This document shows positions 2,916 to 31,055 of a stretch of DNA of 64,000 nucleotides, piece by piece. Made by a program: the position numbers and the translations under genes. The first letter of the stretch is position 1. Each line of letters starts with the position of its first letter. The notes below the pieces were generated by a model. The model was not told where the DNA came from. It saw only the letters and a list, made by a program, of their open reading frames with translations, and made no database searches. Source of the DNA: Frigidibacter albus (lineage in GTDB: Bacteria > Pseudomonadota > Alphaproteobacteria > Rhodobacterales > Rhodobacteraceae); NCBI RefSeq assembly GCF_009908165.1, contig NZ_JAAAUC010000001.1, positions 62,001 through 126,000 on the forward strand, given 5' to 3'.

Positions 2916-4970
2916 ATGAAGACAGGCAGCTGGACGGTAGGGGTCGATGTGGGTGGCACGTTCACCGACCTTTGCGCCGTGGATCAGCAGACGGGGCAGG
3001 TGGCGCTGCACAAGGTCTCCAGCACACCCGCAAATCCGGCCGCCGCGATCATCGCTGGGCTGGAGGGGCTGGCCGCCAAGATCGGCATTGATCTGGCAGA
3101 CGTCAGCGCGGTTGCGCATGGCACGACCGTGGCGACCAACGCCCTGATCCAGCGCCGGGGTGCGCGCGTGGCGATGGTCACCACCCGCAATTTCCGCGAT
3201 CTGGTCGAGATCGGGCGCCAGATCCGGCCCAGGATGTATGACCTCAAGGCCGATTTCCCGATGCCGCTGGCCCCGCGCGAGTTGCGGTTCGAGGTGGATG
3301 AGCGCGTCGGCCCGGCGGGTGAGGTGATCACTCCGCTGGACATGGCAAGCGTGGACGCAGTGATCGACCGGCTGCGGGCGGAGGAGGTGGAGGCGGTCGC
3401 CATCGCCTTCCTCTTCGCCTATCTCAACCCCGCGCATGAGCGGGCGGTGAAGGCCCGCATCGCGGCAGCGCTGCCGGGCGTCGCAATCTCCACCTCGTCC
3501 GAGGTGCAGCCGGAATTCCGGGAATATGAACGGTCTTCGACAACCCTGCTGAACGCCTATCTGCAGCCCACCTTTTCGACCTACATGACCACCCTGAAAG
3601 ACGAAGTGGCGGCGCGCTCGCCGGGCGCGACGCTGGGGGTCAACCAGTCCAACGGCGGGCTGATGTCGGTCGATACCGCCCGCGACTTCCCGATCCGCAC
3701 GGCACTGTCCGGCCCGGCGGCGGGCGCGATGGGGGCGATTCACACGGCGCGCGCCTCGGGCCTGTCCAGCATCATCACCTTCGATGTCGGCGGGACCAGC
3801 GCCGATGTGGCCCTGATCCGCGACCTGCAGGTGAAGCTGTCCTTCGACCGCGATGTGGCGGGCTTCCCGGTGCGGATGCCGATGGTGGATATCAACACGG
3901 TCGGCGCGGGCGGCGGCTCGATCGCCTGGCAGGACCGGGACGGGCTGCTGAAGGTCGGCCCGGCCAGTGCCGGCGCGCAGCCGGGGCCCGCCTGCTATGG
4001 CCGCGGCGGCACGGACCCCACGGTGACCGATGCGAATGTGGTTCTGGGCCGGCTGTCCACCCGCGGCCTGCTGGGGGGCACCATGTCGCTGGACACGGAC
4101 GCATCGTTCCGCGTGGTGGGCGGGATGGCGACGCAGCTGGGGCTGAGCGTCGAGCAGGTGGCGCGCGGGATCCTCGAGATCATGTCGGCGAACATGGTGC
4201 GGGCGATCCGCGCCATTTCGGTAGAGCGGGGGCATGATCCGCGCGACTTCGTGCTGATGCCGTTCGGCGGGGCAGGGCCCCTTCACGCCGAGGGCTGCGC
4301 GCGTGCGCTTGGGATCACCCAGATCCTGATCCCGCTTCTGCCGGGTATCCTGTGCGCGCAGGGTCTGCTGGTGTCCGACCGGTCGGAAAGCTTCGTCCGT
4401 TCCAAACGCATCGCCGCGCGGGACGAGAATGCCGGCGCGCTGGCAGAGATGGTCAGCGCGATGCAGGCAGAGGCCGATGACTGGTGGGCGCGCGAGAACA
4501 TCGCGCCCGCCGACCGCAAGGTGCAGCTGGCCGCCGACATGCGCTATGCCAGCCAGAATTATGAGCTGCAGATCACGCTGGACGCGCTGCCGGGCATCGC
4601 CACCCTGAAGCAGATGTTCTTCGCCGCCCATGCGCAGGCCTACGGCTTCTTCAACCCCGACGATCCGGTGGATGTGGTGGCGCTGCGCCTGACCGCCATT
4701 GGCACGCGGCCCGCGCTGGAGGCCCCGGCGCAATCGGGCACGGCGACGGCGGCGCCCCAGCCCCGCTCGCACCGCCCGGTGTGGTTCTATGGCGCCGCGC
4801 CGATCACCGCGCCCGTCTATGACCGCGCCGATTTCGCGGCGGGCACCACGCTTTCCGGCCCCGCCGTCATCGACCAGTTCGACGCGACGCTGCTGCTGTT
4901 CCCCGGCGACACGGCGCGGGTGGACGATGCCCTCAACATCCTAATCCAGCGCGGGAACCTTGACCTGTGA
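2916..4970 (+). CDS. hyuA: Hydantoinase/5-oxoprolinase subunit A (HyuA family)
   Basis: ATP-dependent amidohydrolase large subunit of 684 aa, acting with HyuB to open a cyclic amide such as N-methylhydantoin or 5-oxoproline, in the cytoplasm. Family hallmarks are the N-terminal nucleotide-binding signature VGVDVGGTFTDLCAVD (about 7-22), VAHGTTVATNALIQR, the second actin-fold phosphate loop FDVGGTSADVALI, NTVGAGGGSIAW and PGPACYGRGGTDPTVTDAN. The ATG at 2916 is chosen because homology begins a few residues after it; a longer in-frame reading from 2832 would run through the operator. It overlaps hyuB by 4 bases (GTGA). Length fits bacterial HyuA (about 680-700). Co-transcription with a TRAP transporter implies an imported anionic substrate. 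The exact substrate cannot be read from sequence. Confidence 0.85.
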   Translation: MKTGSWTVGVDVGGTFTDLCAVDQQTGQVALHKVSSTPANPAAAIIAGLEGLAAKIGIDLADVSAVAHGTTVATNALIQRRGARVAMVTTRNFRDLVEIGRQIRPRMYDLKADFPMPLAPRELRFEVDERVGPAGEVITPLDMASVDAVIDRLRAEEVEAVAIAFLFAYLNPAHERAVKARIAAALPGVAISTSSEVQPEFREYERSSTTLLNAYLQPTFSTYMTTLKDEVAARSPGATLGVNQSNGGLMSVDTARDFPIRTALSGPAAGAMGAIHTARASGLSSIITFDVGGTSADVALIRDLQVKLSFDRDVAGFPVRMPMVDINTVGAGGGSIAWQDRDGLLKVGPASAGAQPGPACYGRGGTDPTVTDANVVLGRLSTRGLLGGTMSLDTDASFRVVGGMATQLGLSVEQVARGILEIMSANMVRAIRAISVERGHDPRDFVLMPFGGAGPLHAEGCARALGITQILIPLLPGILCAQGLLVSDRSESFVRSKRIAARDENAGALAEMVSAMQAEADDWWARENIAPADRKVQLAADMRYASQNYELQITLDALPGIATLKQMFFAAHAQAYGFFNPDDPVDVVALRLTAIGTRPALEAPAQSGTATAAPQPRSHRPVWFYGAAPITAPVYDRADFAAGTTLSGPAVIDQFDATLLLFPGDTARVDDALNILIQRGNLDL

Positions 4971-6676: not shown

Positions 6677-6773
6677 CCGCACACCCATAACGACAGAGGC
6701 GCCAAAGCGCCCGAATGAACCCCAACCTGCCAAATGGTCCCCGGACCGACGGCACCCAACAGGGAAACGACAC

Positions 6774-19291: not shown

Positions 19292-19323
19292 TGATTGTAT
19301 GCGCTTTCAGTATGCTGCAATCA
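19292..19323. promoter_or_regulatory. Repeat cluster upstream of the FAD oxidoreductase operon
   Basis: TGATTG (19292-19297) and CAATCA (19318-19323) form a perfect 6-bp inverted repeat. Inside it are direct copies TGTATGC (19296-19302) and AGTATGC (19309-19315). TGTATGC is also the right half-site of the GntR operator at 2863-2892, so the same or a related regulator could act here. It lies 29-60 bases before the chosen start. Confidence 0.4.
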
Positions 19324-19801
19324 ATATTATGCCAAATACGGATGATAATCCACTTGTTTGCGGTTCGCGCGTTTGGTGAGCATGAAATAGGGGGGACTGC
19401 TTGAACTGTGGCGTTTGGGGTGTCGCCTTCGGGCAGCGGACACCAGCTGTTCAGTCCCGGCATTTGGCGCTGCTGCCCGCCACCTGCGTAGAACCCGCGG
19501 CTTGCCCGGAAGGGCAGGGACCGCGCACCTTCATGGCATTCGCAACGATGCGGCACAGTTCACCTGCGCTGCCTGCCGCGTCGGCGCCTGAGGTATGGGC
19601 TGGTTGCGGGGCGTCGGGAGCCCGGTGAGGCAGGTTGGCCGCCACGCAGCGCCACAGCTGGAGCTTCGCCTATAAATTGGTCACACGCAGAGCTTTTGCG
19701 CAAGTATTGGGCTGTTCAGCTCGAACCTCTGCCCTGCCTGCGTGCGCACGTTGCCTCGACCTTCGATCCCGCGGAAACGGAGGCGTCAGGAGGGCCCCGT
19801 C
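19324..19801. other. Long divergent intergenic region before nasT, no gene recognised
   Basis: About 480 bases between the minus-strand operon and nasT. Only short, unconvincing open frames are present. Visible are AT-rich patches near 19324-19350 (ATATTATGCCAAATACGG) and CTATAAATTGG near 19671, either of which could supply promoters. A strong AGGAGG ribosome-binding site for nasT sits at 19788-19793. No sigma-54 -24/-12 element with correct spacing was found. Confidence 0.5.
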
Positions 19802-20383
19802 ATGGCGCGTCTATCCATAATTGTCGTCGAACGCGACCGCGACCGCGCCTTGCGCATCGTCGACGGGCTGATGGCATCTGGTGACCACGCGATTACCGTG
19901 ATTGCAGAGGAAACGGGCTTGGCTCGCCGCATCGCCGAGCAGAAGCCCGACATCGTGCTGATCGATGTCGCCGACCCTTCTCGGGACGTTCTGGAGGAAC
20001 TCGCGCTGGTCTCTGGGCCGATGGAACGGCCCGTCGCGATGTTTGTCGATCGTTCAGACGAGCAACTGACCCGGGCTGCCATCGAGGCAGGGGTTTCGGC
20101 ATATGTCGTCGATGGCCTGCAGCCAGAGCGGATCAAACCGATCCTTGATGCAGCGATTGCACGGTTCCACATGTTTCAGAAGATGCGCGCCGAGCTTGCC
20201 GCTACCAAGGCCGCTTTGGAAGAGCGCAAGATCATCGACCGCGCCAAGGCAATCTTGATGAAGGCGAGGGGGATCGACGAAGAAGCCGCATATGCCCTGC
20301 TGCGCAAGACGGCGATGGACCAGAAGCGCCGGGTGGCCGACATCGCGCAGCAACTGGTGATGGCGGCGGGGTTGCTGACATGA
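19802..20383 (+). CDS. nasT: NasT, ANTAR-domain antitermination response regulator
   Basis: 193-aa protein with an N-terminal pseudo-receiver/receiver domain (about 4-120; LSIIVVERDRDRALRIVDGL, D55 in LIDVADPS) and a C-terminal ANTAR RNA-binding domain (about 136-190; ALEERKIIDRAKAILMKARG then IDEEAAYALLRKTAMDQKRR). NasT binds paired hexaloop hairpins in nas leader RNA and prevents termination; without nitrate it is held inactive by NasS (known biology). ATG 19802 has AGGAGG 9 bases upstream. It overlaps nasS by 4 bases, giving stoichiometric expression. A matching two-hairpin target is present before nrtA. Confidence 0.9.
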   Translation: MARLSIIVVERDRDRALRIVDGLMASGDHAITVIAEETGLARRIAEQKPDIVLIDVADPSRDVLEELALVSGPMERPVAMFVDRSDEQLTRAAIEAGVSAYVVDGLQPERIKPILDAAIARFHMFQKMRAELAATKAALEERKIIDRAKAILMKARGIDEEAAYALLRKTAMDQKRRVADIAQQLVMAAGLLT

Positions 20384-21555
20384 GCCTGTCAACGCTGCGC
20401 CTCGGCTATGTGCCGCTGATCGACGCGGCCCCGCTGATCGTGGCGCGCGAGCTTGGCTTTGACGCCGAAGAAGGGCTGAGCTTTGAGCTGATCCGCCTGC
20501 AAAGCTGGGCGCAAAGCCGCGACCTGCTGGGGATGGGTGGCATAGATGCCGCGCATATGCTGGTGCCCTTGCCGATTGCGCAGACCCTTGGTCTGGGCCC
20601 GGTCTATCCGCGCTTTGATCTGGTGATGGTGCTGTCGGTGGGCGGGCAGGCGATAGCCGTCAGTGCGGCTCTGGCAGATGCCATGCGGACGCAGGGCCAT
20701 GGTTTCGGCTTTGGTGACCCACTGGCCGCGCGTGATGCCCTGATCGCAGTGGCGGGCGGGCGCCTGCGCGTGGGGGTGCCGTTCCCGTTTTCGACCCAAG
20801 CCGAACTGGTCCGGCGCTGGCTGGCCGGCACCGGCCTTGATGCCGGGGTCAGCATCCACACCGTGCCCCCGCCGCTGATGGCCGATGCGCTGGCCGCAGG
20901 CGAGGTCGATGCCTTCTGCGTCGGTGAACCCTGGGCCTCTTATGCTGTGGAACGCGGTGTTGCGGCGCTGGTGCTGGCCGGGCGATCGATCTGGGCATCG
21001 CCTCCGGAAAAGGGGCTGGTGCTGACCCGCGACTTCACGGCATCGCGCCCGGAGGAAACCGGCCGCATGATGCGGGCGCTCTGGCGGGCCTGCCGCTGGC
21101 TGGACCAACCCGACAACCGGAGCACGGCAGCCGAAATCCTGTCGCGTCCCGATTATCTGAACCTGCCGCCGGAACTGAGCGAGCGCGGCTTGCTGGGGCG
21201 ACTGCATATCAGCATGTCAGGCGAGGTGCGGCAGTATCCGGGATTCATCCGCTTTCATGACGGAGCCGCGAATTTTCCTTGGCGCAGTCTCGCCGCGCTG
21301 CTCGCGCAAAGGATCGCCACGGTACACGGCCTGGATGTGAATTGGGCGATGGATCAGGCGATGGGCTGTTTCCGGACCGATCTTTATCGCCAGCACCTGC
21401 GTCAGGCGGGGGCCGATCTGCCCGGCGCATCCGCCCGGATCGAGGGATCGATGCTGCATGCCACGGCAGTTGCGTCGGAAATGGGCCAGATGATTCTGGG
21501 CCCGGACGCGTTCTTTGATGGCGAAACATTCGACCCGGCGCTTGCTGCGCGCTGA
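20380..21555 (+). CDS. nasS: NasS, cytoplasmic nitrate/nitrite sensor
   Basis: 391-aa NrtA/CmpA-like binding-fold protein that lacks a signal peptide (MSLSTLRLGYVPLIDAAPLI), consistent with a cytoplasmic sensor rather than a transporter component. Conserved segments shared with NrtA are LGYVPLIDAAPLIVARELGF, GGIDAAHMLVPLPIAQTLGL, EVDAFCVGEPWASYAVERGV and VRQYPGFIRFHDGAANFPW. In known systems NasS sequesters NasT and releases it on nitrate or nitrite binding. The start overlaps nasT (ATGA). A 281-base leader region, not a gene, follows the stop. Confidence 0.88.
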   Translation: MSLSTLRLGYVPLIDAAPLIVARELGFDAEEGLSFELIRLQSWAQSRDLLGMGGIDAAHMLVPLPIAQTLGLGPVYPRFDLVMVLSVGGQAIAVSAALADAMRTQGHGFGFGDPLAARDALIAVAGGRLRVGVPFPFSTQAELVRRWLAGTGLDAGVSIHTVPPPLMADALAAGEVDAFCVGEPWASYAVERGVAALVLAGRSIWASPPEKGLVLTRDFTASRPEETGRMMRALWRACRWLDQPDNRSTAAEILSRPDYLNLPPELSERGLLGRLHISMSGEVRQYPGFIRFHDGAANFPWRSLAALLAQRIATVHGLDVNWAMDQAMGCFRTDLYRQHLRQAGADLPGASARIEGSMLHATAVASEMGQMILGPDAFFDGETFDPALAAR

Positions 21556-21662
21556 TATTTTGGGCGCGGCCAGCATCGGCTGCGGAAATGCTATGCTGCG
21601 CCGCCGAAACACTCGCGCCGCCCTTGAACATGGGCCCTGGGCCCGACAGGATTGAGTCATCG

Positions 21663-21708
21663 GGCAAGCAACGGCGCTTGCCGGTCACAGATTTCCGCAA
21701 AGATGCGG
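21663..21708 (+). promoter_or_regulatory. Two-hairpin ANTAR (NasT) target in the nrtA leader
   Basis: Hairpin 1: GGCAAGC (21663-21669), hexaloop AACGGC (21670-21675), GCTTGCC (21676-21682). Hairpin 2: CCGC (21695-21698), hexaloop AAAGAT (21699-21704), GCGG (21705-21708). Both loops are six bases with A at position 1 and G at position 4, the recognition rule known for ANTAR proteins, and the hairpins are 12 bases apart. The position, between nasTS and nrtA and upstream of a terminator-like structure, fits NasT-controlled antitermination. Confidence 0.75.
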
Positions 21709-21728
21709 TCCCCCCACATGGCAATGAC

Positions 21729-21774
21729 GCCGCCCATCCTGCGCCCTTCGGGCCAGAGATCGAGGCGGCTTTTT
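21729..21774 (+). terminator. Leader terminator of the nrt-nir-nas operon (antitermination target)
   Basis: GCCGCC (21729-21734) can pair with GGCGGC (21764-21769), followed directly by TTTTT (21770-21774). An inner GCCCTTCGGGC hairpin stabilises the loop. It starts 20 bases after the second ANTAR hairpin and ends 62 bases before the nrtA start. GCGG of hairpin 2 could also pair with the CCGC inside the 5' arm, giving alternative folds. Function as regulated terminator is inferred. Confidence 0.6.
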
Positions 21775-21836
21775 GTCGTTCAGCCAAAGCCTGCCCCGCC
21801 CGATGCACCGGGGCCTTAAGCCCGAGGAACCGCTCG

Positions 21837-23129
21837 ATGACCCTGATCCAACCGCCCACTCGCCGCAGCTTCCTGAAATCCGCCATCGGCGCCGCCGCAA
21901 CGGTCGCGGCCGCCCGCATCGCCCTTCCGGGCGGAGCCTGGGCGGCGACCACCACCCCCGAGGTGACGGGGGCCAAGCTGGGCTACATCGCCCTGACCGA
22001 CAGCGCCCCTTTGATCATAGCAGTGGAAAAGGGATTCTTCGCCAAGCACGGCATGCCCGACGTGCTGGTGGAAAAGCAGGCAAGCTGGGGGGCCACGCGC
22101 GACAACATGACCCTGGGGTCGGCATCGGGCGGCATCGACGGGGGGCACATCTTGCGGCCCAAGGTGCATCTTTATGCCACCGGCAAGGTGATGCAGAACA
22201 ACCAGCCGCTGCCGATGTACACGTTGATGAATCTCAACGAGGACTGCCAGGGCCTGTCGGTCGCCCAGGCCCTGGCCGAGACCGGCGTCGGTCTCGACAG
22301 CGCGCCGCTGCGCGAGGTGTTCGCCGCCAAGCGGGCCGCCGGAACCGAGATCCCGGTTGCGATGACCTTTCCGGGCGGCACGCATGATCTGTGGATGCGC
22401 TATTGGCTGGCGGCAGGCGGGATCGATCCGACCAAGGACGTCGACCTGATCGTGGTGCCGCCGCCGCAGATGGTGGCCAACATGAAGGTCGGCAACATGG
22501 AGGCCTTTTGCGTAGGCGAGCCCTGGAATGAACAGCTGGTCAACCAGGGCATCGGCTTTACCGCCGCCACGTCGGGCGAACTGTGGAAGCATCACCCCGA
22601 AAAGGTTCTCGGGATGCGCGCCGAATGGGTCGACGCCAACCCGAACGCGACCCTTGCCCTGATGATGGCGGTGATGGAGGCGCAGATGTGGTGCGAAGAC
22701 GCCGCCAACAAGGACGAGATGGCCGAGATCATCGGCCGCCGCCAATGGTACAACGTGCCGGTCAAGGACATCAGCGGTCGCATCAAGGGCGATATCAACT
22801 ATGGAAACGGGCGCGTCGTCTCGGATCCGACGCTGGCGATGAAGTTCTGGCGCGGCGGGGCGACGTCCTTCCCCTGGAAGTCGCTCGACAGCTGGTTCAT
22901 CACCGAGAACAAGCGCTGGGGCCATCTGCCGGGCGATCTCGACACCAAGGCGCTGGTCGATGCCACCAATCGCTCTGACCTGTGGCTTCAGGCGGCGGCC
23001 GGGCTGGGGTTGGACACCTCCGGCTTTGGCGACAGCCGCGGGATCGAGACCTTCTTCGACGGCAAGAGCTTCGATCCTGCCGACCCCGAAGCCTATCTTG
23101 GCAGCCAGTCGATCAAGGCCGTGGCATGA
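21837..23129 (+). CDS. nrtA: Nitrate ABC transporter substrate-binding protein NrtA
   Basis: 430-aa periplasmic nitrate-binding protein with a Tat-type signal (TRRSFLKSAIGAAATVAAAR, then IALPGGAWA). The mature part is the NrtA/CmpA fold: AKLGYIALTDSAPLIIAVEK, GGIDGGHILRP, FPGGTHDLWMRYWLAAGGID, NMEAFCVGEPWNEQLVNQGI and GATSFPWKSLDSWF. ATG 21837 is supported by GAGGA nine bases upstream and by the twin-Arg motif a few residues in; longer upstream frames run through the RNA leader. It overlaps nrtB by 4 bases. It captures nitrate for the NrtBC importer. Confidence 0.9.
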   Translation: MTLIQPPTRRSFLKSAIGAAATVAAARIALPGGAWAATTTPEVTGAKLGYIALTDSAPLIIAVEKGFFAKHGMPDVLVEKQASWGATRDNMTLGSASGGIDGGHILRPKVHLYATGKVMQNNQPLPMYTLMNLNEDCQGLSVAQALAETGVGLDSAPLREVFAAKRAAGTEIPVAMTFPGGTHDLWMRYWLAAGGIDPTKDVDLIVVPPPQMVANMKVGNMEAFCVGEPWNEQLVNQGIGFTAATSGELWKHHPEKVLGMRAEWVDANPNATLALMMAVMEAQMWCEDAANKDEMAEIIGRRQWYNVPVKDISGRIKGDINYGNGRVVSDPTLAMKFWRGGATSFPWKSLDSWFITENKRWGHLPGDLDTKALVDATNRSDLWLQAAAGLGLDTSGFGDSRGIETFFDGKSFDPADPEAYLGSQSIKAVA

Positions 23130-24025
23130 TGGGGCGATCGATGACTGTAACCGCTCTCAATCCCACCCCCGCCTCCGCGCAGAAAGCTGAAGCGCAGGTT
23201 GTGCCGCTGCCGCGACCCGCCAAGCGCCCGCAGCGACTTGCCGCCCTCGGGCGCATCGTCGCCGAAAGGATCGCTCCGCCGGTTGTCGTGCTGCTTGTCC
23301 TGCTGCTGATCTGGCAGCTGTCGTTTTCCGGTGCGGCGTCGGGCCTGCCCGCCCCCACCGATGTCTGGGAGCAGAGCCGCGAGCTTATCCTCGACCCCTT
23401 CTTCGTCTACGGAACCCAGGACATAGGCCTTGGCTGGCGGGTCCTCACCTCGCTGGAGCGCGTGGCCTACGGCTTTGGCCTTGCCGCCGTGGTCGGCGTG
23501 CTGGTGGGTGCCATCCTTGGCCAGTCCGCGCTGATGATGCGGGGCTTCGACCCGATCTTCCAGGTCCTGCGCACCGTGCCGCCGCTGGCGTGGTTGCCGA
23601 TCTCGTTGGCGGCGTTCATGGACAGCGGCCCCTCGGCGATCTTCGTGATCTTCATCACCGCGATCTGGCCGATCATCATCAACACCGCCGCCGGCGTCCG
23701 CGCCATCCCGCAGGACTACCGCAACGTCGCCGCCGTGCTGCGCCTGAACCAGATCGAGTTCTTCTGGGAGATCATGGTGCCCTCCGCTGCGCCCTACATC
23801 TTTTCCGGCCTGCGTATCGGGGTGGGCCTGTCATGGCTGGCCATCGTCGCGGCGGAAATGCTGACCGGCGGCGTCGGGATCGGCTTCTTCATCTGGGATG
23901 CGTGGAACAGCAGCCGCCTGACCGACATCATCGTGGCCCTGGTCTACATCGGCGTCACCGGCTTCGTGCTCGACCGGCTGGTCGGCTGGCTTGGCCACGT
24001 CGTCTCTCGCGGCACAACGGAATAG
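23126..24025 (+). CDS. nrtB: Nitrate ABC transporter permease NrtB
   Basis: 299-aa permease with about six membrane helices. The N-terminal 45 residues are hydrophilic and basic; the first helix is PPVVVLLVLLLIWQLSF. EAA-type loop: AVLRLNQIEFFWEIMVPSAA then PYIFSGLRIG. The family feature VLRTVPPLAWLPISLAAFMD and the C-terminal ADIIVAL-type VYIGVTGFVLDR are seen. The start ATG overlaps the nrtA stop (ATGA at 23126); ATG 23129 or 23141 are alternatives. It is followed by the ATPase gene after 8 bases. Confidence 0.88.
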   Translation: MMGRSMTVTALNPTPASAQKAEAQVVPLPRPAKRPQRLAALGRIVAERIAPPVVVLLVLLLIWQLSFSGAASGLPAPTDVWEQSRELILDPFFVYGTQDIGLGWRVLTSLERVAYGFGLAAVVGVLVGAILGQSALMMRGFDPIFQVLRTVPPLAWLPISLAAFMDSGPSAIFVIFITAIWPIIINTAAGVRAIPQDYRNVAAVLRLNQIEFFWEIMVPSAAPYIFSGLRIGVGLSWLAIVAAEMLTGGVGIGFFIWDAWNSSRLTDIIVALVYIGVTGFVLDRLVGWLGHVVSRGTTE

Positions 24026-24033
24026 GGATAGCC

Positions 24034-24828
24034 ATGAAATACCTGCAAATCGACCGGGTCTGCAAATCCTATCCCGGCAAGGGCCGCGTGACCGAAGTTC
24101 TGTCCGACATCCGCCTGACCATCGACAAGGGCGAATTCGTGTCGATCATCGGCCATTCCGGCTGCGGCAAGTCCACCCTTCTCAACCTGATCGCCGGGCT
24201 GACCGATATCACGACCGGCGTGATCAAGCTGGAGGGCCGAGAGGTCAACGCCCCCGGCCCCGACCGCGCCGTGGTGTTCCAGAACCACAGCCTGCTGCCG
24301 TGGCTGTCGGTCTATGACAACGTCAAGCTGGCGGTGACAAAGGTGTTCGGAAGCACGAAGTCACGGGCCGAACGGCATGACTGGATCATGCAGACGCTCG
24401 AACTCGTGCAGATGACCCATGCCATCGGCCAGCGCCCCGGAGAGATTTCGGGCGGGATGCGGCAAAGGGTGGGCATTGCCCGGGCCCTGGCGATGGAGCC
24501 GAAGATCCTGCTGCTGGACGAGCCCTTCGGCGCGCTCGATGCGCTGACCCGGGCGCATCTTCAGGACGCGGTGATGGATATCCATGCACGGCTGAAGAAC
24601 ACGATGATCATGATCACCCATGATGTCGACGAGGCCGTTTTGCTGGCCGACCGCATCGTGATGATGACCAACGGCCCCGCCGCGACGATTGGCGAGGTGT
24701 TGCCCGTCGCCATCCCCCGGCCGCGGGACCGGATCGTGCTGGCCTCCAACCCCGACTACGTGCGCACCCGCGAGGCGGTGCTGCGCTTCCTCTACGAACG
24801 TCACCGTTTCGTGGAGGCCGCGGAATGA
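24034..24828 (+). CDS. nrtC: Nitrate ABC transporter ATP-binding protein (NrtD/NrtC-like)
   Basis: 264-aa ATPase with Walker A GHSGCGKST, Q-loop VVFQNHSLLPWLS, signature ISGGMRQRVGIARAL, Walker B ILLLDEPFGALD and H-loop MITHDVDEAVLLAD, all intact. It is a single-domain ATPase without the C-terminal NrtA-like domain of cyanobacterial NrtC, so it should act as a homodimer. ATG 24034 is preceded by AATAGGGATAGCC, and the end overlaps nirB by 4 bases. Confidence 0.88.
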   Translation: MKYLQIDRVCKSYPGKGRVTEVLSDIRLTIDKGEFVSIIGHSGCGKSTLLNLIAGLTDITTGVIKLEGREVNAPGPDRAVVFQNHSLLPWLSVYDNVKLAVTKVFGSTKSRAERHDWIMQTLELVQMTHAIGQRPGEISGGMRQRVGIARALAMEPKILLLDEPFGALDALTRAHLQDAVMDIHARLKNTMIMITHDVDEAVLLADRIVMMTNGPAATIGEVLPVAIPRPRDRIVLASNPDYVRTREAVLRFLYERHRFVEAAE

Positions 24829-27257
24829 CCGGCAGACAGAAACTTGTTGTCATCGGCGCCGGCATGGCCTCGGGCCGGATGCTGGAACAGCTCTTTGACG
24901 CCGGAGCCGATTTCGACGTCACCCTGTTCAACGCCGAGCCGCGCGGCAACTACAACCGGCTGATGCTGTCGCCGGTACTGTCGGGCGAAAAGAGCTATGA
25001 GCAGATCGTGACGCATGATGCGGGCTGGTATGCGGCGCATGGCGTGGATTGCCGCTTTGGCGAAGCCGTGGTGAAGATCGACCGCGCCAACAAGGTGGCC
25101 CTGTCGGGCTCTGGCGGCGTGCCTTACGACGCGTTGGTGATCGCCACCGGCTCTGCCCCCTTCATCATACCGGTCCCGGGCAAGGACCTTCCGGGTGTCT
25201 GCACCTATCGCGATCTTGAAGACACAAACGCGATGATCGCGGCCAGCCTGCCGGGGTCGAAGGCCGTTGTGATCGGCGGCGGCCTTCTGGGGCTGGAGGC
25301 TGCCGCCGGCATGGCCGCCCGCGGTGCCGAGGTCACGGTCATTCATCTGATGGGTCATTTGATGGAACGCCAGTTGGACCCGGCGGCCGGGTATCTGCTG
25401 CAAAAGGACCTCGAAAGGCGCGGCATCCGCATCCATTGCAAGGGGGCCACCAAGGCAATCCTGGGAAAGGACCGGGTCGAAGCGGTGCTGCTGGAGGATG
25501 GCACCGTTTACGGCGCTGACCTTGTCTGCATGGCAGTGGGCATCCGCCCCGAAGTGAGGCTTGCCAACGATACGCATCTGCACGTGGGGCGCGGCATCAC
25601 CGTCGATGACCAGATGCGCACCTCCGATCCTGCGATCTTTGCGCTTGGCGAATGCGTGGAGCATGACCGGCAGCTCTTTGGCCTCGTCGCCCCGCTTTAC
25701 GATCAGGCGAAAGTGCTGGCTGCCACGCTTCTGGGCCAGACCGCAGCCTTCCAGCCGGTCCAGACCGCGACCAAGCTGAAGGTGACTGGCGTCGACCTCT
25801 TCAGCGCGGGCGATTTCGCCGATGCGCCGGGGCGCGAGGAGATCGTGTTCCGGGATCCGGGGCGCGGTGTCTACAAGCGGCTGATCCTCGACGGCGACCG
25901 GCTGATCGGCGCGGTGCTGTATGGCGACACCGCGGACGGGTCCTGGTTCTTTGACATGATCAAGCAGGGCAAGGACGTCTCGGGCATCCGCGACACCCTG
26001 ATCTTCGGCCCCGCCTTCGCCGGGGGGCCCACCGCAAACCCTTTGGCAGCCGTTGCAGCCTTGCCGCCTGAAGCGGAGATCTGTGGCTGCAACGGCGTCT
26101 GCAAGGGCCGGATCGTTACCGCCATCGAAGGTGGTGCCACAACGCTGGACGCGGTGCGCAGCGCCACCAAGGCAAGTGCAAGCTGCGGAACCTGCACGGG
26201 CCTTGTGGAACAGGTCATGGCCCTGACCCTTGGCGCCGGCTTCACTGCCAACACCAATCCAGCCATGTGCAAATGCACTGACCACACGCATGAGGATGTG
26301 CGGCGGCTGATCAAATCCATGGCCCTCAAATCCATCCCTGCCGTGATGCAGGAGCTGGGATGGAAAACCGGTGGCGGCTGCGCTTCGTGCCGCCCGGCGC
26401 TGAACTACTACCTGATCGCCGACTGGCCGACCGACTATGTCGACGACCGGCAGTCGCGCTTCGTGAACGAACGCAACCATGGCAACATCCAGAAGGATGG
26501 CACCTATTCGGTGGTCCCCCGGATGTGGGGCGGGGTAACGACCTCGGCTGAGTTGCGGGCGATTGCAGATGCCGCCGACCGCTATGCCGTGCCGCTGATC
26601 AAGGTGACAGGCGGCCAGCGGATCGATCTTCTGGGCATCCGCAAGGAAGACCTGCCTGCGATCTGGACCGACCTCAACGCCGCCGGGATGGTGTCGGGGC
26701 ACGCCTACGCAAAAGGCTTGCGCACGGTGAAGACCTGCGTCGGGACCGATTTCTGCCGCTTCGGGACGCAAGACAGCACAGGCCTCGGGATCAGGCTTGA
26801 AAAGATGCTCTGGGGCTCCTGGACCCCTGCGAAGGTGAAACTGGGCATCTCCGGCTGCCCGAGGAACTGCGCCGAGGCCACCTGCAAGGATATCGGCGTG
26901 GTCTGTGTGGACAGCGGATACGAGATCAGCGTCGCCGGGGCGGCGGGCATGGACGTGAAGGAAACCGAGTTTCTTTGCAAAGCCGTGACCGAGGCCGAGG
27001 TGATGGAGATCATCGCAGCCTTTACCCAACTCTACCGGGAAAACGCGCGATACCTGCACCGCATCTACAAATGGGTGGCAAAGGTGGGCCTCGAGTGGTG
27101 CCGCGCGCAGGTCGAGGATCCCGGGACCCGCCGCGCGCTGCATGACCGGTTCATGCTCAGCCAGTCGATCTATCAGACCGACCCGTGGGCAGAACATGCC
27201 GGCAAACCCGCCGATTGGGCACCGATTGCCGACCTGACGCTGAGGGCTGCCGAATGA
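24825..27257 (+). CDS. nirB: Assimilatory NAD(P)H nitrite reductase large subunit NirB/NasB
   Basis: 810-aa cytoplasmic siroheme nitrite reductase converting nitrite to ammonium. Domain order: FAD site VVIGAGMASGRMLEQL (about 6-21); NAD(P)H site AVVIGGGLLGLEAAAGMAAR (about 146-165); BFD-like [2Fe-2S] segment EICGCNGVCKGRIVTAIEGG with CGTC (about 420-465); GGGCASCRPALNYYL; and the siroheme/[4Fe-4S] half with TCVGTDFCRFG (C-x5-C) and GISGCPRNCAEATCKDIGVV (C-x3-C). All four siroheme-cluster cysteines are present. It is coupled by ATGA overlaps to nrtC and nirD. Length fits NirB (about 810-850). Confidence 0.93.
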   Translation: MTGRQKLVVIGAGMASGRMLEQLFDAGADFDVTLFNAEPRGNYNRLMLSPVLSGEKSYEQIVTHDAGWYAAHGVDCRFGEAVVKIDRANKVALSGSGGVPYDALVIATGSAPFIIPVPGKDLPGVCTYRDLEDTNAMIAASLPGSKAVVIGGGLLGLEAAAGMAARGAEVTVIHLMGHLMERQLDPAAGYLLQKDLERRGIRIHCKGATKAILGKDRVEAVLLEDGTVYGADLVCMAVGIRPEVRLANDTHLHVGRGITVDDQMRTSDPAIFALGECVEHDRQLFGLVAPLYDQAKVLAATLLGQTAAFQPVQTATKLKVTGVDLFSAGDFADAPGREEIVFRDPGRGVYKRLILDGDRLIGAVLYGDTADGSWFFDMIKQGKDVSGIRDTLIFGPAFAGGPTANPLAAVAALPPEAEICGCNGVCKGRIVTAIEGGATTLDAVRSATKASASCGTCTGLVEQVMALTLGAGFTANTNPAMCKCTDHTHEDVRRLIKSMALKSIPAVMQELGWKTGGGCASCRPALNYYLIADWPTDYVDDRQSRFVNERNHGNIQKDGTYSVVPRMWGGVTTSAELRAIADAADRYAVPLIKVTGGQRIDLLGIRKEDLPAIWTDLNAAGMVSGHAYAKGLRTVKTCVGTDFCRFGTQDSTGLGIRLEKMLWGSWTPAKVKLGISGCPRNCAEATCKDIGVVCVDSGYEISVAGAAGMDVKETEFLCKAVTEAEVMEIIAAFTQLYRENARYLHRIYKWVAKVGLEWCRAQVEDPGTRRALHDRFMLSQSIYQTDPWAEHAGKPADWAPIADLTLRAAE

Positions 27258-27589
27258 GCAAGTTCATCGACATCGCCGCTCTGGACGACATCCCCCGCCG
27301 GGGAGCCCGGGTGGTGAAGACACCGCAAGGCTGCGTCGCGCTCTTCCGCACCGCGGATGACAGGGTGTTCGCGCTGGAGGATCGCTGCCCCCACAAGGGC
27401 GGCCCCTTGTCCGAAGGGATCGTGCATGGCACCTCTGTCACCTGCCCGCTGCATGGCTGGGTGTTCGACCTGAACACCGGTCAGGCGCAGGGAGCGGATG
27501 AGGGAGAAGTGCGCACCTTCATTGTGTGCCTAGACGGCGGCCGCGTCCTGGTGGATGCCTCCTTCCTTTCCGGGCGATCCGCGGCATGA
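27254..27589 (+). CDS. nirD: Nitrite reductase small subunit NirD (Rieske)
   Basis: 111-aa Rieske [2Fe-2S] protein of the NirD type: CPHKGGPLSEGIVHG followed by CPLHGWVFDLNTGQAQG gives the C-x-H...C-x2-H ligand set. It associates with NirB. ATG 27254 overlaps the nirB stop and homology starts immediately (KFIDIAALDDIPRRGARVV). The stop overlaps the nasA start (ATGA). Complete. Confidence 0.92.
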   Translation: MSKFIDIAALDDIPRRGARVVKTPQGCVALFRTADDRVFALEDRCPHKGGPLSEGIVHGTSVTCPLHGWVFDLNTGQAQGADEGEVRTFIVCLDGGRVLVDASFLSGRSAA

Positions 27590-30231
27590 CGCGCCCAACC
27601 CCCATCGCCACCCCGCGCCCGGCAGGGGCGGCCCGCGAAACCACCATCCGCACCACCTGCCCCTATTGCGGTGTGGGCTGCGGGGTGCTTGCGACGCCCG
27701 ACGCGCATGGCGGGATTGCCATCAAGGGCGACCCGGACCATCCCGCCAACCGGGGGCGGCTTTGCGTGAAAGGCGCGGCATTGGGCGAAACCCTTGGAAC
27801 CCGAGGACGGCTGAAGGCGCCGACCGTTCACGGGCAGACTGCGACCTGGGACGTGGCGCTCGATTTGATCGCCGCGCAGTTCACCCGCACGATCGCCGCA
27901 CATGGGCCCGACTCGGTCGCGCTGTACGTTTCCGGTCAGTTGCTGACCGAAGATTACTATGTCGCCAACAAGCTGATGAAAGGGTTCATCGGCTCCGCGA
28001 ATATCGACACCAATTCACGGCTCTGCATGGCGTCCAGCGTGGCGGGTCATCGCCGTGCCTTTGGGACGGATACCGTCCCCGGCCAGTACGAGGATCTGGA
28101 AATTGCCGATCTGGTGGTACTGGTCGGATCGAACCTTGCCTGGTGCCATCCGGTCCTGCATCAGCGTCTTATGGCGGCCAAGGCGACGCAGGGCACGAAG
28201 ATCGTTGTGATCGACCCGCGCCGCACCGCCACCTGCGAGGGGGCAGACCTGCATCTTGCACTTGCGCCGGGGGCCGATGCGCATCTGTTCAACCTGCTTC
28301 TTTGCCACATCTTCGACCGGGGCCTCCTGAACCGCGATTTCCTGCCCCATGTCACGGGTGTCGAGGCCTCCCTTGCCGCAGCGCGCCACAGCAAGCCGGG
28401 CGACACCGGCATCCCCCCGGACGATCTCGCGGCGTTCCTCGCGCTCTGGGCGGCCAGCGAGAGGGTCGTCACCGTCTATTCGCAGGGCATCAACCAGTCC
28501 GACAGCGGCACCGACAAGGTGAATGCCATCATCAATTGCCATCTCGCCACGGGCCGCATCGGGCGCCCCGGCATGGGGCCGCTTTCCGTGACCGGCCAGC
28601 CCAATGCGATGGGCGGACGCGAGGTGGGGGGGCTGGCCAATATGCTCGCCTGCCATCTTGAACTCGACAACCCCATTCACCGGGACGCGGTGCAAGGGTT
28701 CTGGGCCAGCCCGCGCATGCCGGCCAAGCCGGGGCTGAAGGCGGTGGACATGTTCCGCGCCGTTGAACAGGGTCAGATCAAGGCGCTTTGGGTGATGCAC
28801 ACCAACCCTGCGGTGACCATGCCCGATGCCTCGCGCGTAGCGGGCGCAATCGCGGCCTGTGATTTCGTGGCGGTCAGCGACATCTGGGCCACCACCGACA
28901 CGGCGCGTCTGGCGCATGTGTTGCTCCCCGCAACCGGGTGGGGCGAAAAGGACGGCACTGTCACCAATTCCGAACGCATGATCAGCAGGCAGCGCGCATT
29001 CATCCCTGCCCCCGGTCAGGCACGTGCAGACTGGTGGCAGCTGGCAGCAGTGGCACGTCGGATGGGCTTTCCCGGGTTTGACTGGGCCTCGCCTGCGCAG
29101 ATCTTCGCAGAATACTCGGCGCTTTCCGGTGTGGCGGGCCAGTTGGGCAGCGACTTCGACATCTCGGCTTTGCAAGACATTGACTATGACCATCTTGCCC
29201 CCGTCACCTGGCCGCAGGCGGCGCGGAAGGGTGGCAGGTTCTTTGGCGACGGGCAGTTCCATACGCCGGATCGCAAAGCGCGGATGCTCCCCGTCGCGGC
29301 CTGCCTGCCTGCCGCACTGTCACCCGGTCATCCGTTCCGCCTCAACACCGGGCGGGTGCGCGACCATTGGCACACCATGACCCGCACCGGACTTGTGCCG
29401 CGCTTGCAGCAGCACCTGGGTGAGCCGTATCTTGAGATCAACCCGGACGATGCCGCCCGCCTTGGCCTTGCGCCCGCGACATTGGCCGAAGTGACGAGCC
29501 CGCAAGGCCGAGCCATCCTGCGGGTGCTGATCAGTGACCGTGTTGCGCCCGGCCATCCCTTCGCGCCCATGCACTGGACTGCCGAGACCGCACCGACCGG
29601 CCGCATAGACACGCTTGTGGCGGCCGTCACTGACCCGATTTCGGGCCAGCCGGCCAGCAAGTCCACACCCGTCGCCATCCGCCCCTATGCGGCCCGCTGG
29701 CATGCCTTTGCCGTATCACGCCATGATCTGCGCCCAAGCTGCGAGTACTGGGCCAAGGCACAGGTGGCCGGAGGCGTGCAGATGGAGCTGGCAGGAGCAG
29801 GTCCGCCCGCCGATTGGGCGGTATGGGCCAGCGCGCTCTTCGACGGTGCCGTGCCGTCCTCTGCGCTGTCGGACCCTGCGCGAGGGATGCAACGGTTCGC
29901 CTTTGTCTCCGGCGGGCGATTGCAGGGCGCAGTCTTCGTGTCGCGTGATCCGGTGCTTGTGGCACGCGCCCATCTTGCCGGACTGCTGGGCGCAGAGGGC
30001 GAGGATGTGCTGGCTGGACGCCCGGGCATCGATCAACCCGATCCCGGCCCCGCCGTCTGCGCCTGCCTGAACATCGGCCGGAACACCATCCTTCGGGCCA
30101 TCGCCCAGGACGGCGCGCTGAGCGTCGAGGCGCTTGGTGAATGCCTGGGCGCCGGTACCAGCTGCGGGTCCTGCCGCCCAGAACTGGCCGCGCTGATTTT
30201 TAGCCACACCCACCGCGAGGCCGCTGAATGA
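27586..30231 (+). CDS. nasA: Assimilatory nitrate reductase catalytic subunit NasA/NasC
   Basis: 881-aa molybdopterin (bis-MGD) enzyme reducing nitrate to nitrite in the cytoplasm. The N-terminal [4Fe-4S] ligands are C25, C28, C32 (CPYCGVGCGV) and C60 (GRLCVKGA). The molybdopterin core shows LCMASSVAGHRRAFGTDTVP, GINQSDSGTDKVNAIINCHL, GRPGMGPLSVTGQPNAMGGR and the MCD-binding FRLNTGRVRDHWHTMTRTGL. The C-terminus ends in a BFD-like [2Fe-2S] domain (VCACLNIGR, then GTSCGSCRPELAALI), the arrangement of NADH-linked or NasB-linked assimilatory enzymes. No Tat signal. Start ATG overlaps nirD; overlap with cobA is also ATGA. Confidence 0.92.
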   Translation: MTRPTPIATPRPAGAARETTIRTTCPYCGVGCGVLATPDAHGGIAIKGDPDHPANRGRLCVKGAALGETLGTRGRLKAPTVHGQTATWDVALDLIAAQFTRTIAAHGPDSVALYVSGQLLTEDYYVANKLMKGFIGSANIDTNSRLCMASSVAGHRRAFGTDTVPGQYEDLEIADLVVLVGSNLAWCHPVLHQRLMAAKATQGTKIVVIDPRRTATCEGADLHLALAPGADAHLFNLLLCHIFDRGLLNRDFLPHVTGVEASLAAARHSKPGDTGIPPDDLAAFLALWAASERVVTVYSQGINQSDSGTDKVNAIINCHLATGRIGRPGMGPLSVTGQPNAMGGREVGGLANMLACHLELDNPIHRDAVQGFWASPRMPAKPGLKAVDMFRAVEQGQIKALWVMHTNPAVTMPDASRVAGAIAACDFVAVSDIWATTDTARLAHVLLPATGWGEKDGTVTNSERMISRQRAFIPAPGQARADWWQLAAVARRMGFPGFDWASPAQIFAEYSALSGVAGQLGSDFDISALQDIDYDHLAPVTWPQAARKGGRFFGDGQFHTPDRKARMLPVAACLPAALSPGHPFRLNTGRVRDHWHTMTRTGLVPRLQQHLGEPYLEINPDDAARLGLAPATLAEVTSPQGRAILRVLISDRVAPGHPFAPMHWTAETAPTGRIDTLVAAVTDPISGQPASKSTPVAIRPYAARWHAFAVSRHDLRPSCEYWAKAQVAGGVQMELAGAGPPADWAVWASALFDGAVPSSALSDPARGMQRFAFVSGGRLQGAVFVSRDPVLVARAHLAGLLGAEGEDVLAGRPGIDQPDPGPAVCACLNIGRNTILRAIAQDGALSVEALGECLGAGTSCGSCRPELAALIFSHTHREAAE

Positions 30232-31055
30232 GCTATCTGGACAACCCTTCGCTGATCGTCCCCGCGGCCCCGCGCGGAAAGCCGGGCCGTATCACGCTGG
30301 TAGGTGCGGGGCCCGGGGCGGCAGACATGCTGACCCTGCGGGCGATCCGCTATCTGGGCCAGGCAGATGTCGTGTTCTATGACCGGCTGGTCGACCCCGA
30401 AACGCTGGAATATGTCCGGTCCGACGCCGAACGCATCTTCGTCGGAAAAGAGATCGGAGCGCATAGCTGGCCGCAACCGCGCATCGATGCGGCGATTGTC
30501 GCTGCAGCCTTGTCCGGCAAGCAGGTCGTGCGTCTGAAATCGGGTGATCCGTCGATTTTTGGCCGCGCGACCGAGGAAATCTCCGCTGCGCGCGCCCATG
30601 GTGTCGAGATCGAGGTCGTCGCCGGCGTCACCGCCGCCAGTGCTGCCGCCGCCAGCCTGTGCCAGCCCCTTACCGAGCGCGGCGTGACCGACCGAGTGGT
30701 GCTTGCCACAGCGACCTGCCGGCCGGGTGAGAAGATGTCAAACCTGCAGGACCTGGCGCGCCCCGGAACAACGCTGGTCTTCTACATGGCGATGCGTCAG
30801 CTGAAGCAATTGACCGGCCGGCTTCTGGCGTTGGGCGTCGGGCCCGACCAGCCGGTGTCGATTGCCAGCCATGTGTCGCGCCACAACGCCCGCAGTTTGC
30901 ACACGACATTGCAGAACATGTCGGCGGATTGCGCTGCGGCCGGCATCGACAACCCGGCCGTCATCATCGTGAGCCTGCCAAAAGCGGATATCGACGAAAC
31001 CCATCGCGGAATGGCCGAGTGCTCCTCGGGCGAAGCCCTGCTTGAAGGCATCTGA
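30228..31055 (+). CDS. cobA: Uroporphyrinogen-III C-methyltransferase (SUMT), siroheme synthesis
   Basis: 275-aa SAM-dependent methyltransferase producing precorrin-2, the precursor of the siroheme needed by NirB. Motifs: GRITLVGAGPGAADMLTLRA (SAM loop), VVFYDRLVDPETLEY, VVRLKSGDPSIFGRATEE, VEIEVVAGVTAASAAAASL, PLTERGVTDRVVLATATCRP and TLVFYMAMRQL. It is a single SUMT domain without the CysG oxidase/chelatase half, so that step must be encoded elsewhere. It is coupled to nasA by ATGA and is the last gene of the nitrate operon. Confidence 0.92.
   Translation: MSYLDNPSLIVPAAPRGKPGRITLVGAGPGAADMLTLRAIRYLGQADVVFYDRLVDPETLEYVRSDAERIFVGKEIGAHSWPQPRIDAAIVAAALSGKQVVRLKSGDPSIFGRATEEISAARAHGVEIEVVAGVTAASAAAASLCQPLTERGVTDRVVLATATCRPGEKMSNLQDLARPGTTLVFYMAMRQLKQLTGRLLALGVGPDQPVSIASHVSRHNARSLHTTLQNMSADCAAAGIDNPAVIIVSLPKADIDETHRGMAECSSGEALLEGI

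Follow-up and report, generated by a model that had tools for sequence, protein, structure and literature searches.

A three-hairpin leader ahead of a nitrate assimilation operon in Frigidibacter albus, very probably read by nitrate-controlled NasT

The analysed window, a 64-kb stretch of the Frigidibacter albus genome, carries a regulatory gene pair, a leader and an operon for nitrate uptake and reduction on its forward strand. The genes, and the profile matches on which they were named, are as follows:

19802..20383, + strand: nasT, REC-ANTAR RNA-binding regulator (Pfam ANTAR PF03861, E 1.6e-19)
20380..21555, + strand: nasS, NrtA-like nitrate sensor (Pfam NMT1_2, E 4.8e-63)
21556..21836, + strand: leader between nasS and nrtA (sequence, hairpin scan and covariance-model matches)
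21837..23129, + strand: nrtA, nitrate-binding protein with a TAT-like signal (Pfam NMT1_2, E 1.5e-99)
23132..24025, + strand: nrtB permease, start approximate (NCBIfam TIGR01183, E 6.2e-91, above cut-off)
24031..24828, + strand: nrtC ATPase (Pfam ABC_tran, E 1.2e-34)
24825..27257, + strand: nirB (TIGR02374, 847.8 bits, above cut-off)
27254..27589, + strand: nirD (TIGR02378, 93.6 bits, above cut-off)
27586..30231, + strand: molybdopterin oxidoreductase (Pfam Molybdopterin, E 3.2e-70)
30228..31055, + strand: uroporphyrinogen-III C-methyltransferase (cobA), siroheme supply (TIGR01469, 245.8 bits, above cut-off)

The start of nasT at 19802 was picked via an alignment, the frame being open from 19742, and the TAT_signal match of NrtA (E 0.00088) lay under the cut-off of that Pfam model. 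An earlier sequence-only reading of this DNA had placed nasTS directly upstream of the leader. The ANTAR and NMT1_2 matches agreed with this placement, and the order nasT-nasS-nrtA relative was kept at all 50 family loci examined, the own genome included. The same reading had named the downstream operon nrtABC-nirBD-nasA-cobA; the gene families were recovered with Pfam and NCBIfam models, with nasA being probable. The product of 27586..30231 scored 383.9 bits with the NCBIfam NasC model, below the cut-off of 1100, and on its domain content is probably an assimilatory nitrate reductase of the nasA/nasC type. The NtrC-type pattern with at most two mismatches was matched 105 times in the whole window, against 83.4 expected (sd 9.7), and since this is only moderately above chance no NtrC site is claimed. 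One such pattern, with a single mismatch, lies at 19522-19538 on the + strand, about 280 nt 5' of nasT; the same pattern has been reported upstream of nasT in P. denitrificans. Elsewhere in the window, at 1556-1672 on the + strand, the Rfam ALIL pseudoknot (RF01497) was matched with 105.1 bits; this pseudoknot is a frameshift element of IS3-family transposase genes.

The ANTAR domain of NasT was the sole strong ANTAR match in the 4.19-Mb genome, and the receiver (REC) match of the protein (23.5 bits) remained below the curated Pfam cut-off of 30.2. The solved structures aligning with NasT were EutV (6wsh/6ww6), the nitrate regulatory protein 4akk and AmiR (1qo0). In EutV the hexaloop is contacted by Arg142, Lys149, Glu160, Tyr164 and Met172 (PMC8934654), and all five align with identical residues of NasT, found in columns 143, 150, 161, 165 and 173 of the NasT alignment (one less with numbering from the ATG at 19802). 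That the EutV chain index differs by two from the numbering of that article is our own reading. The five residues were identical in 15 of 15 aligned NasT proteins; two further EutV contacts come from the opposite ANTAR domain, and in NasT one of them, Lys143, is retained and the other, Lys147, is replaced by Arg. Relatives of NasS in the PDB were NrtA 2g29 and 2i48 (deposited as bicarbonate transporter), and no signal peptide was seen in NasS when judged by eye. The pair thus presents what is expected for NasS-NasT control: a NasT with a REC domain (below cut-off) and an ANTAR domain bearing the RNA-contact residues, adjoined by an NrtA-like NasS without a visible signal peptide.

A systematic scan of the leader for hexaloops with A at position 1 and G at position 4 (A1/G4) on stems of at least 4 pairs returned three hairpins, the last of which runs into an intrinsic terminator:

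21663..21682, + strand: H1, GGCAAGC-AACGGC-GCTTGCC, hexaloop AACGGC, 7 bp
21695..21708, + strand: H2, CCGC-AAAGAT-GCGG, hexaloop AAAGAT, 4 bp
21719..21732, + strand: H3, TGGC-AATGAC-GCCG, hexaloop AATGAC, one G-U pair
21729..21774, + strand: intrinsic terminator with an inner hairpin, GCCGCC (21729-21734) pairing with GGCGGC (21764-21769), then T5 (21770-21774)

The sequence-only reading had described the hexaloops AACGGC and AAAGAT, 12 nt apart, the short stem of the second hairpin and the GCCGCC/GGCGGC stem with its T-run before nrtA, and all of these letters are present as described. It paired H1 with H2 and overlooked H3. The linkers measure 12 nt between H1 and H2 and 10 nt between H2 and H3, and the first and last hairpins are spaced 53 nt apart, loop to loop. 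According to PMC3369931, ANTAR leaders are defined by at least two hairpins of at least three pairs with A1/G4 hexaloops and by an ANTAR protein encoded in the genome; in the dual-hexaloop eut leaders of E. faecalis described there, the linkers are 5-12 nt long and the last hairpin extends into the terminator's 5' arm. Three such hairpins are present here, both linkers fall into that range, the overlap is made by H3 and not by H2, and the genome holds the one strong ANTAR match given above. As judged by sequence comparison with the published dual motif, H1 is an extra upstream hairpin, and H3 is proposed to be the antitermination hairpin.

The 5' arm of the terminator is also the 3' arm of H3, which makes both structures mutually exclusive. 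In RNA folding, the terminator reached a probability of 0.99-1.0 once its 3' arm existed, H3 then falling to 0.01 or less, while the pair probability of H3 was 0.15-0.45 before that arm was made. As the terminator dominates the fold once complete, termination would be the default and H3 would need a holder. At some intermediate transcript lengths the folder preferred the H1 sequence paired with the H3 region. RNAfold also closed A1-U6 of H2 into a tetraloop, and this predicted pair may be closed in the free RNA. The overlap of H3 with the terminator arm was retained in 11 of 11 aligned clade members, three of which have fewer than four T after the terminator stem, and such a conserved overlap is likely to be the switch. 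Leaders of the P. denitrificans type have no common arm, their H3 stopping short of the apparent terminator, so that the switch may differ between branches. The sequence-only reading had put the switch one hairpin earlier, with the 3' arm of H2 pairing with the 5' arm of the terminator, and GCGG (21705-21708) is indeed complementary to CCGC (21730-21733). However, the probability of this pairing was only about 0.04-0.05 in the 91-nt transcript, the terminator arm reads GCCACC, which cannot pair with GCGG, in the ten other members of the 11-member clade, and the sign is wrong, as an H2 stabilised by NasT would free the terminator arm and favour termination. An H2 switch was rejected on these three grounds and is extremely improbable. 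The earlier interpretation is supported in that the nitrate operon is preceded by an ANTAR-target leader, with regulator class, gene order and loop rule all borne out and conserved; the hairpin likely to compete with the terminator is H3.

The 50 family loci were drawn from the 59 of 149 family genomes in which a NasS relative was found. An upstream A1/G4 hairpin was assigned in 47 of the 50 leaders, and an A1/G4 hairpin over the terminator arm was located by script in 41 of the 50, including L005, where it is the middle hairpin. For the family leaders, the A1/G4 rule itself was the criterion by which the first and last hairpins were selected, apart from two G1 last hairpins included manually, and in the close relatives H1 and H3 were positioned manually. 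The loop letters of these hairpins therefore count only in part as independent evidence, whereas the middle hairpin was free of this selection. The L005 leader differs in a further respect: its middle hairpin (2783-2827), GGCCGC-AAGGGC-GCGGCC followed by TTTT, is terminator-like, and its usual terminator has no T-run.

An alignment of the window leader with 16 close relatives, P. denitrificans DSM 413 (L083) among them, contained all three hairpins in every row. Loop G4 was invariant in H1, H2 and H3, in line with the loop conservation expected from the sequence-only reading; loop position 1 was always A in H1 and H2 and either A or G in H3. H2 was the most conserved hairpin of the three, too conserved for covariation, and the H3 stem consisted of three pairs only in several relatives. 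L088, L091 and the too short L079 were left out of this alignment; by reading, L088 has G4 in all three hairpins, but its H1 has three pairs and its H2 and H3 loops begin with G, and L091 lacks H3. In three loci of the same genus three hairpins were likewise present, each with G4 and either A or G as first loop base; the last stem of one locus has three pairs.

Within these 17 leaders, 95.2% of the stem cells were paired, against 86.2% in shuffled alignments, and none of 500 shuffles reached the observed share, a measure that relatedness can inflate. Double-sided changes affected two pairs in H1 and two in H3. A wider alignment comprised 51 of 65 leaders; left out were L004 (a duplicate of L073), L005, L006, L007, L012, L021, L032, L035 and L047-L052, mostly for an irregular H1, middle hairpin or length, which favours regular leaders. 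Its covariation score was 0.461, against 0.151 in shuffles, with 0 of 500 reaching the observed value; relatedness can inflate this score as well. Pair counting was not above the shuffles in either alignment and counts against covariation: the 4 pairs changed on both sides and the 10 pair types of the narrow alignment were reached by 95 and 130 of 500 shuffles, and the 7 pairs and 29 pair types of the wide one by 461 and 70 of 500, respectively.

The middle hairpin bears on a reading in which NasT would pair H1 with the terminator-overlapping H3, H2 serving as a structural spacer that shortens the distance between them. The distance from first to last loop is held at 42-57 nt in 46 of 47 family leaders (63 in L012) while the length of the middle loop varies, as such a spacer would allow. 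However, the middle loop of the wide alignment, which played no part in leader selection, carried G4 in 47 of 51 leaders and A1 in 35 of 51, and H2 tops conservation among the three hairpins of the window and its close relatives; we consider a mere spacer unlikely. In a register-blind search, G4 was found in 23 of 46 middle hairpins, as a loop of five or seven bases is possible in many of them; scores averaged 7.5, compared with 5.4 for shuffled linkers. Beyond the clade of the window, the middle hairpin often had a 7-nt loop or another register. As judged from these sequences, a middle hairpin is present across the family, and its exact loop is unsettled outside the window's clade.

Chance was assessed by dinucleotide shuffling of the leader (281 nt). 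Of 20,000 shuffles, 62 contained a tandem A1/G4 pair, one a tandem pair with at least 11 Watson-Crick pairs and two a triple of A1/G4 hairpins. Elsewhere in the 64 kb, tandem A1/G4 pairs occurred three times on the two strands, and the triple was unique to the leader. These three pairs would suit an ordinary terminator behind nasS that is accompanied by chance hexaloops, with nrtA transcribed from its own promoter independently of NasT. A sigma-70 scan of 19300-22000 found no such promoter, though the scan may not suit this organism and a promoter of its own is possible for nrtA. Over the same interval, a terminator scan called 4 sites where shuffles gave 2.0; one site is part of the leader terminator. 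The rarity of the triple argues against chance hexaloops, as do conservation, covariation and the gene neighbourhood, and we give this explanation very little credence.

Covariance models were used in two versions, R1, which had the window among its training sequences, and R2, whose 38 training leaders excluded the window and its nrtA-type clade but included P. denitrificans-type leaders. R2 placed the leader first in its own genome (35.7 bits, E 1.5e-4), and the next matches had E-values of 0.39, 0.41 and 0.50. At the Rfam gathering threshold, no family was matched in the leader or in six related loci. Below that threshold, the narK RNA model (RF03032) matched over H1 with 15.4 bits, the gathering score being 43.2. 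Its hairpin at model positions 31-50 has the same loop, AACGGC, and aligns with H1; unlike the leader as a whole, only this one hairpin is matched. The narK RNA may itself be an ANTAR target, to judge from this likeness; our literature search on the motif returned no relevant paper. The remaining permissive-threshold Rfam matches in the leader were taken as chance.

Nitrate assimilation is likewise governed by nitrate-responsive ANTAR antitermination at the NasR-dependent nasF leader, where NasR is a one-component NIT-ANTAR protein, in contrast to NasS and NasT here. This leader, from Klebsiella oxytoca, is mentioned in PMC3369931, PMC5424462 and PMC3795266. The closest parallel is the NasS-NasT system of P. 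denitrificans, in which nasTS also lies directly upstream and a hairpin leader precedes nitrate genes. As reported in PMC3795266, nitrate or nitrite dissociates NasS-NasT there, and NasT, once released, is roughly hexameric and able to bind the nasA leader in vitro. According to PMC5424462, which names the hairpins HI and HII and gives the position of HI as 137 bp, mutation of HI severely lowered expression, chromosomal replacement of the 37-bp HI sequence abolished growth on nitrate, and nasA, the gene behind the leader, is required for nitrate import. The leader of P. denitrificans DSM 413 aligned hairpin for hairpin with that of the window, and its positions 5369-5433 in L083 hold three tandem G4 hexaloops. 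The two systems differ in that no nrtA relative was found behind the P. denitrificans leader, and in that its H3 and apparent terminator have no common arm.

Measured from the ATG behind the P. denitrificans leader, the stretch from the start of H2 (134 bp) to the end of H3 (97 bp) covers 37 bp. This span equals the length of HI and lies near 137 bp, so HI, as described in PMC5424462, would correspond to H2 plus H3 and HII to the terminator, which would leave H1 outside the published mutational work. The canonical dual motif could then be sufficient, with H2 and H3 as the NasT pair and H1 as a spacer or idle. The 10-nt linker between H2 and H3 lies within the range of the eut leaders (PMC3369931), H2 plus H3 match in size the HI deletion that abolished growth on nitrate (PMC5424462), and two other alphaproteobacterial leaders, L055 and L061, have just two such hairpins side by side. 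Against an idle H1 stand its invariant A1/G4 and its two stem pairs changed on both sides in the window and 16 relatives, and its assignment in nearly all family leaders, where its loop letters were selected by the A1/G4 rule. H2 and H3 as the only NasT pair are therefore a tentative reading, at roughly one chance in three.

The EutV-controlled eut leaders share A1/G4 hexaloops, short linkers, a terminator-overlapping last hairpin and the same protein contact residues with the window leader; they have two hairpins instead of three, and EutV is activated by phosphorylation, whereas NasT is activated by release from NasS. In the model proposed for EutV, a dimer first occupies a recruitment hairpin and then passes to an antitermination hairpin; lengthening of the linker by 20 nt abolished the effect, and PMC8934654, the structural article reporting this, treats the need for both hairpins as an open question. 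The 53-nt spacing between H1 and H3, with a recognition-type hairpin between them, would fit a three-step hand-over.

Taken together, the sequence comparisons confirmed a regulatory kind that is known, here in a three-hairpin variant, and the leader is very probably read by nitrate-controlled NasT. We propose, with a probability of roughly 0.83, a NasT-controlled transcription-antitermination leader in which H3 decides and H1 and H2 are extra NasT sites taking part in a hand-over. Without nitrate, NasS would hold NasT, the terminator at 21729-21774 would fold and transcription of nrtABC-nirBD-nasA-cobA would halt. Nitrate or nitrite would release NasT, which could then bind the tandem A1/G4 hexaloop hairpins; nitrate control is inferred here by analogy with the P. 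denitrificans homologue. The outcome would depend on NasT at H3 (21719-21732), as a held H3 excludes the terminator, and H1 and H2 would load NasT or pass it on as RNA polymerase nears the U-tract. Such binding and hand-over would amount to a three-step form of the recruitment-to-antitermination transfer proposed for EutV. One specific form of this proposal has NasT dimers on all three hexaloops, with H1 and H2 as successive loading sites until H3 blocks the terminator; it is possible but tentative, in our estimate about as probable as the H2 plus H3 pair. If it were true, the roughly hexameric NasT reported in PMC3795266 would be three dimers matched to three hairpins, and ANTAR recognition would extend beyond hexaloops, since the middle site of the wider family would be a seven-base loop with G4.

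Titles and abstracts of the open-licence literature gave no description of a three-hairpin ANTAR leader, and the terms 'three hairpin' and 'third hairpin' are absent from the main text of PMC5424462. The sequence data support the way in which nitrate assimilation would be switched on in this lineage and correct the likely antiterminator hairpin to H3. Among NasT leaders of the family, one recognition-type hairpin beyond those foreseen by the dual-hexaloop model is conserved, and a natural three-hairpin leader makes the hand-over model testable loop by loop.

Model R1 was run on 60 of 80 named-genome loci, the other 20 being training members, duplicates or too short. At E of 0.01 or less, 55 of the 60 loci showed a leader where nasS ends, and 57 did so at E of 1 or less; the misses were L118, L120 and L129, with L118 matched on the opposite strand. 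In loci of other families, a leader followed nasS in 2 of 19 (L059 and L060). Since 150 of the 2483 candidates in the own genome were scored in the first look, a second, weaker target is possible there. A lower-ranked match in the own genome (G000:C11:20740, L154) was discarded, as it spans the end of one coding sequence and the start of the next. An order-wide model search found matches at E 0.001 in 66 of 195 genomes. Eight further matches, from five other genomes, were read together with a Pfam analysis of the downstream gene; one (L202), at the start of an arginase-family gene, was considered false. The genes downstream of the other seven were of the tetrapyrrole-methylase/siroheme-synthase (three), MFS transporter (one), nirB-like (one) and nrtA-like (two) kinds, most of which lie in one operon behind one leader in the genome of the window. 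NasT-type leaders were located directly 5' of tetrapyrrole-methylase or siroheme-synthase genes in L195, L198 and L199, which suggests, from gene order, that cofactor supply is under separate nitrate control in these genomes. L118 contained three leader-like matches on the minus strand (3126-3191, 6678-6732 and 1513-1562), none of them after nasS; judging by these positions, several operons are possibly under one NasT there.
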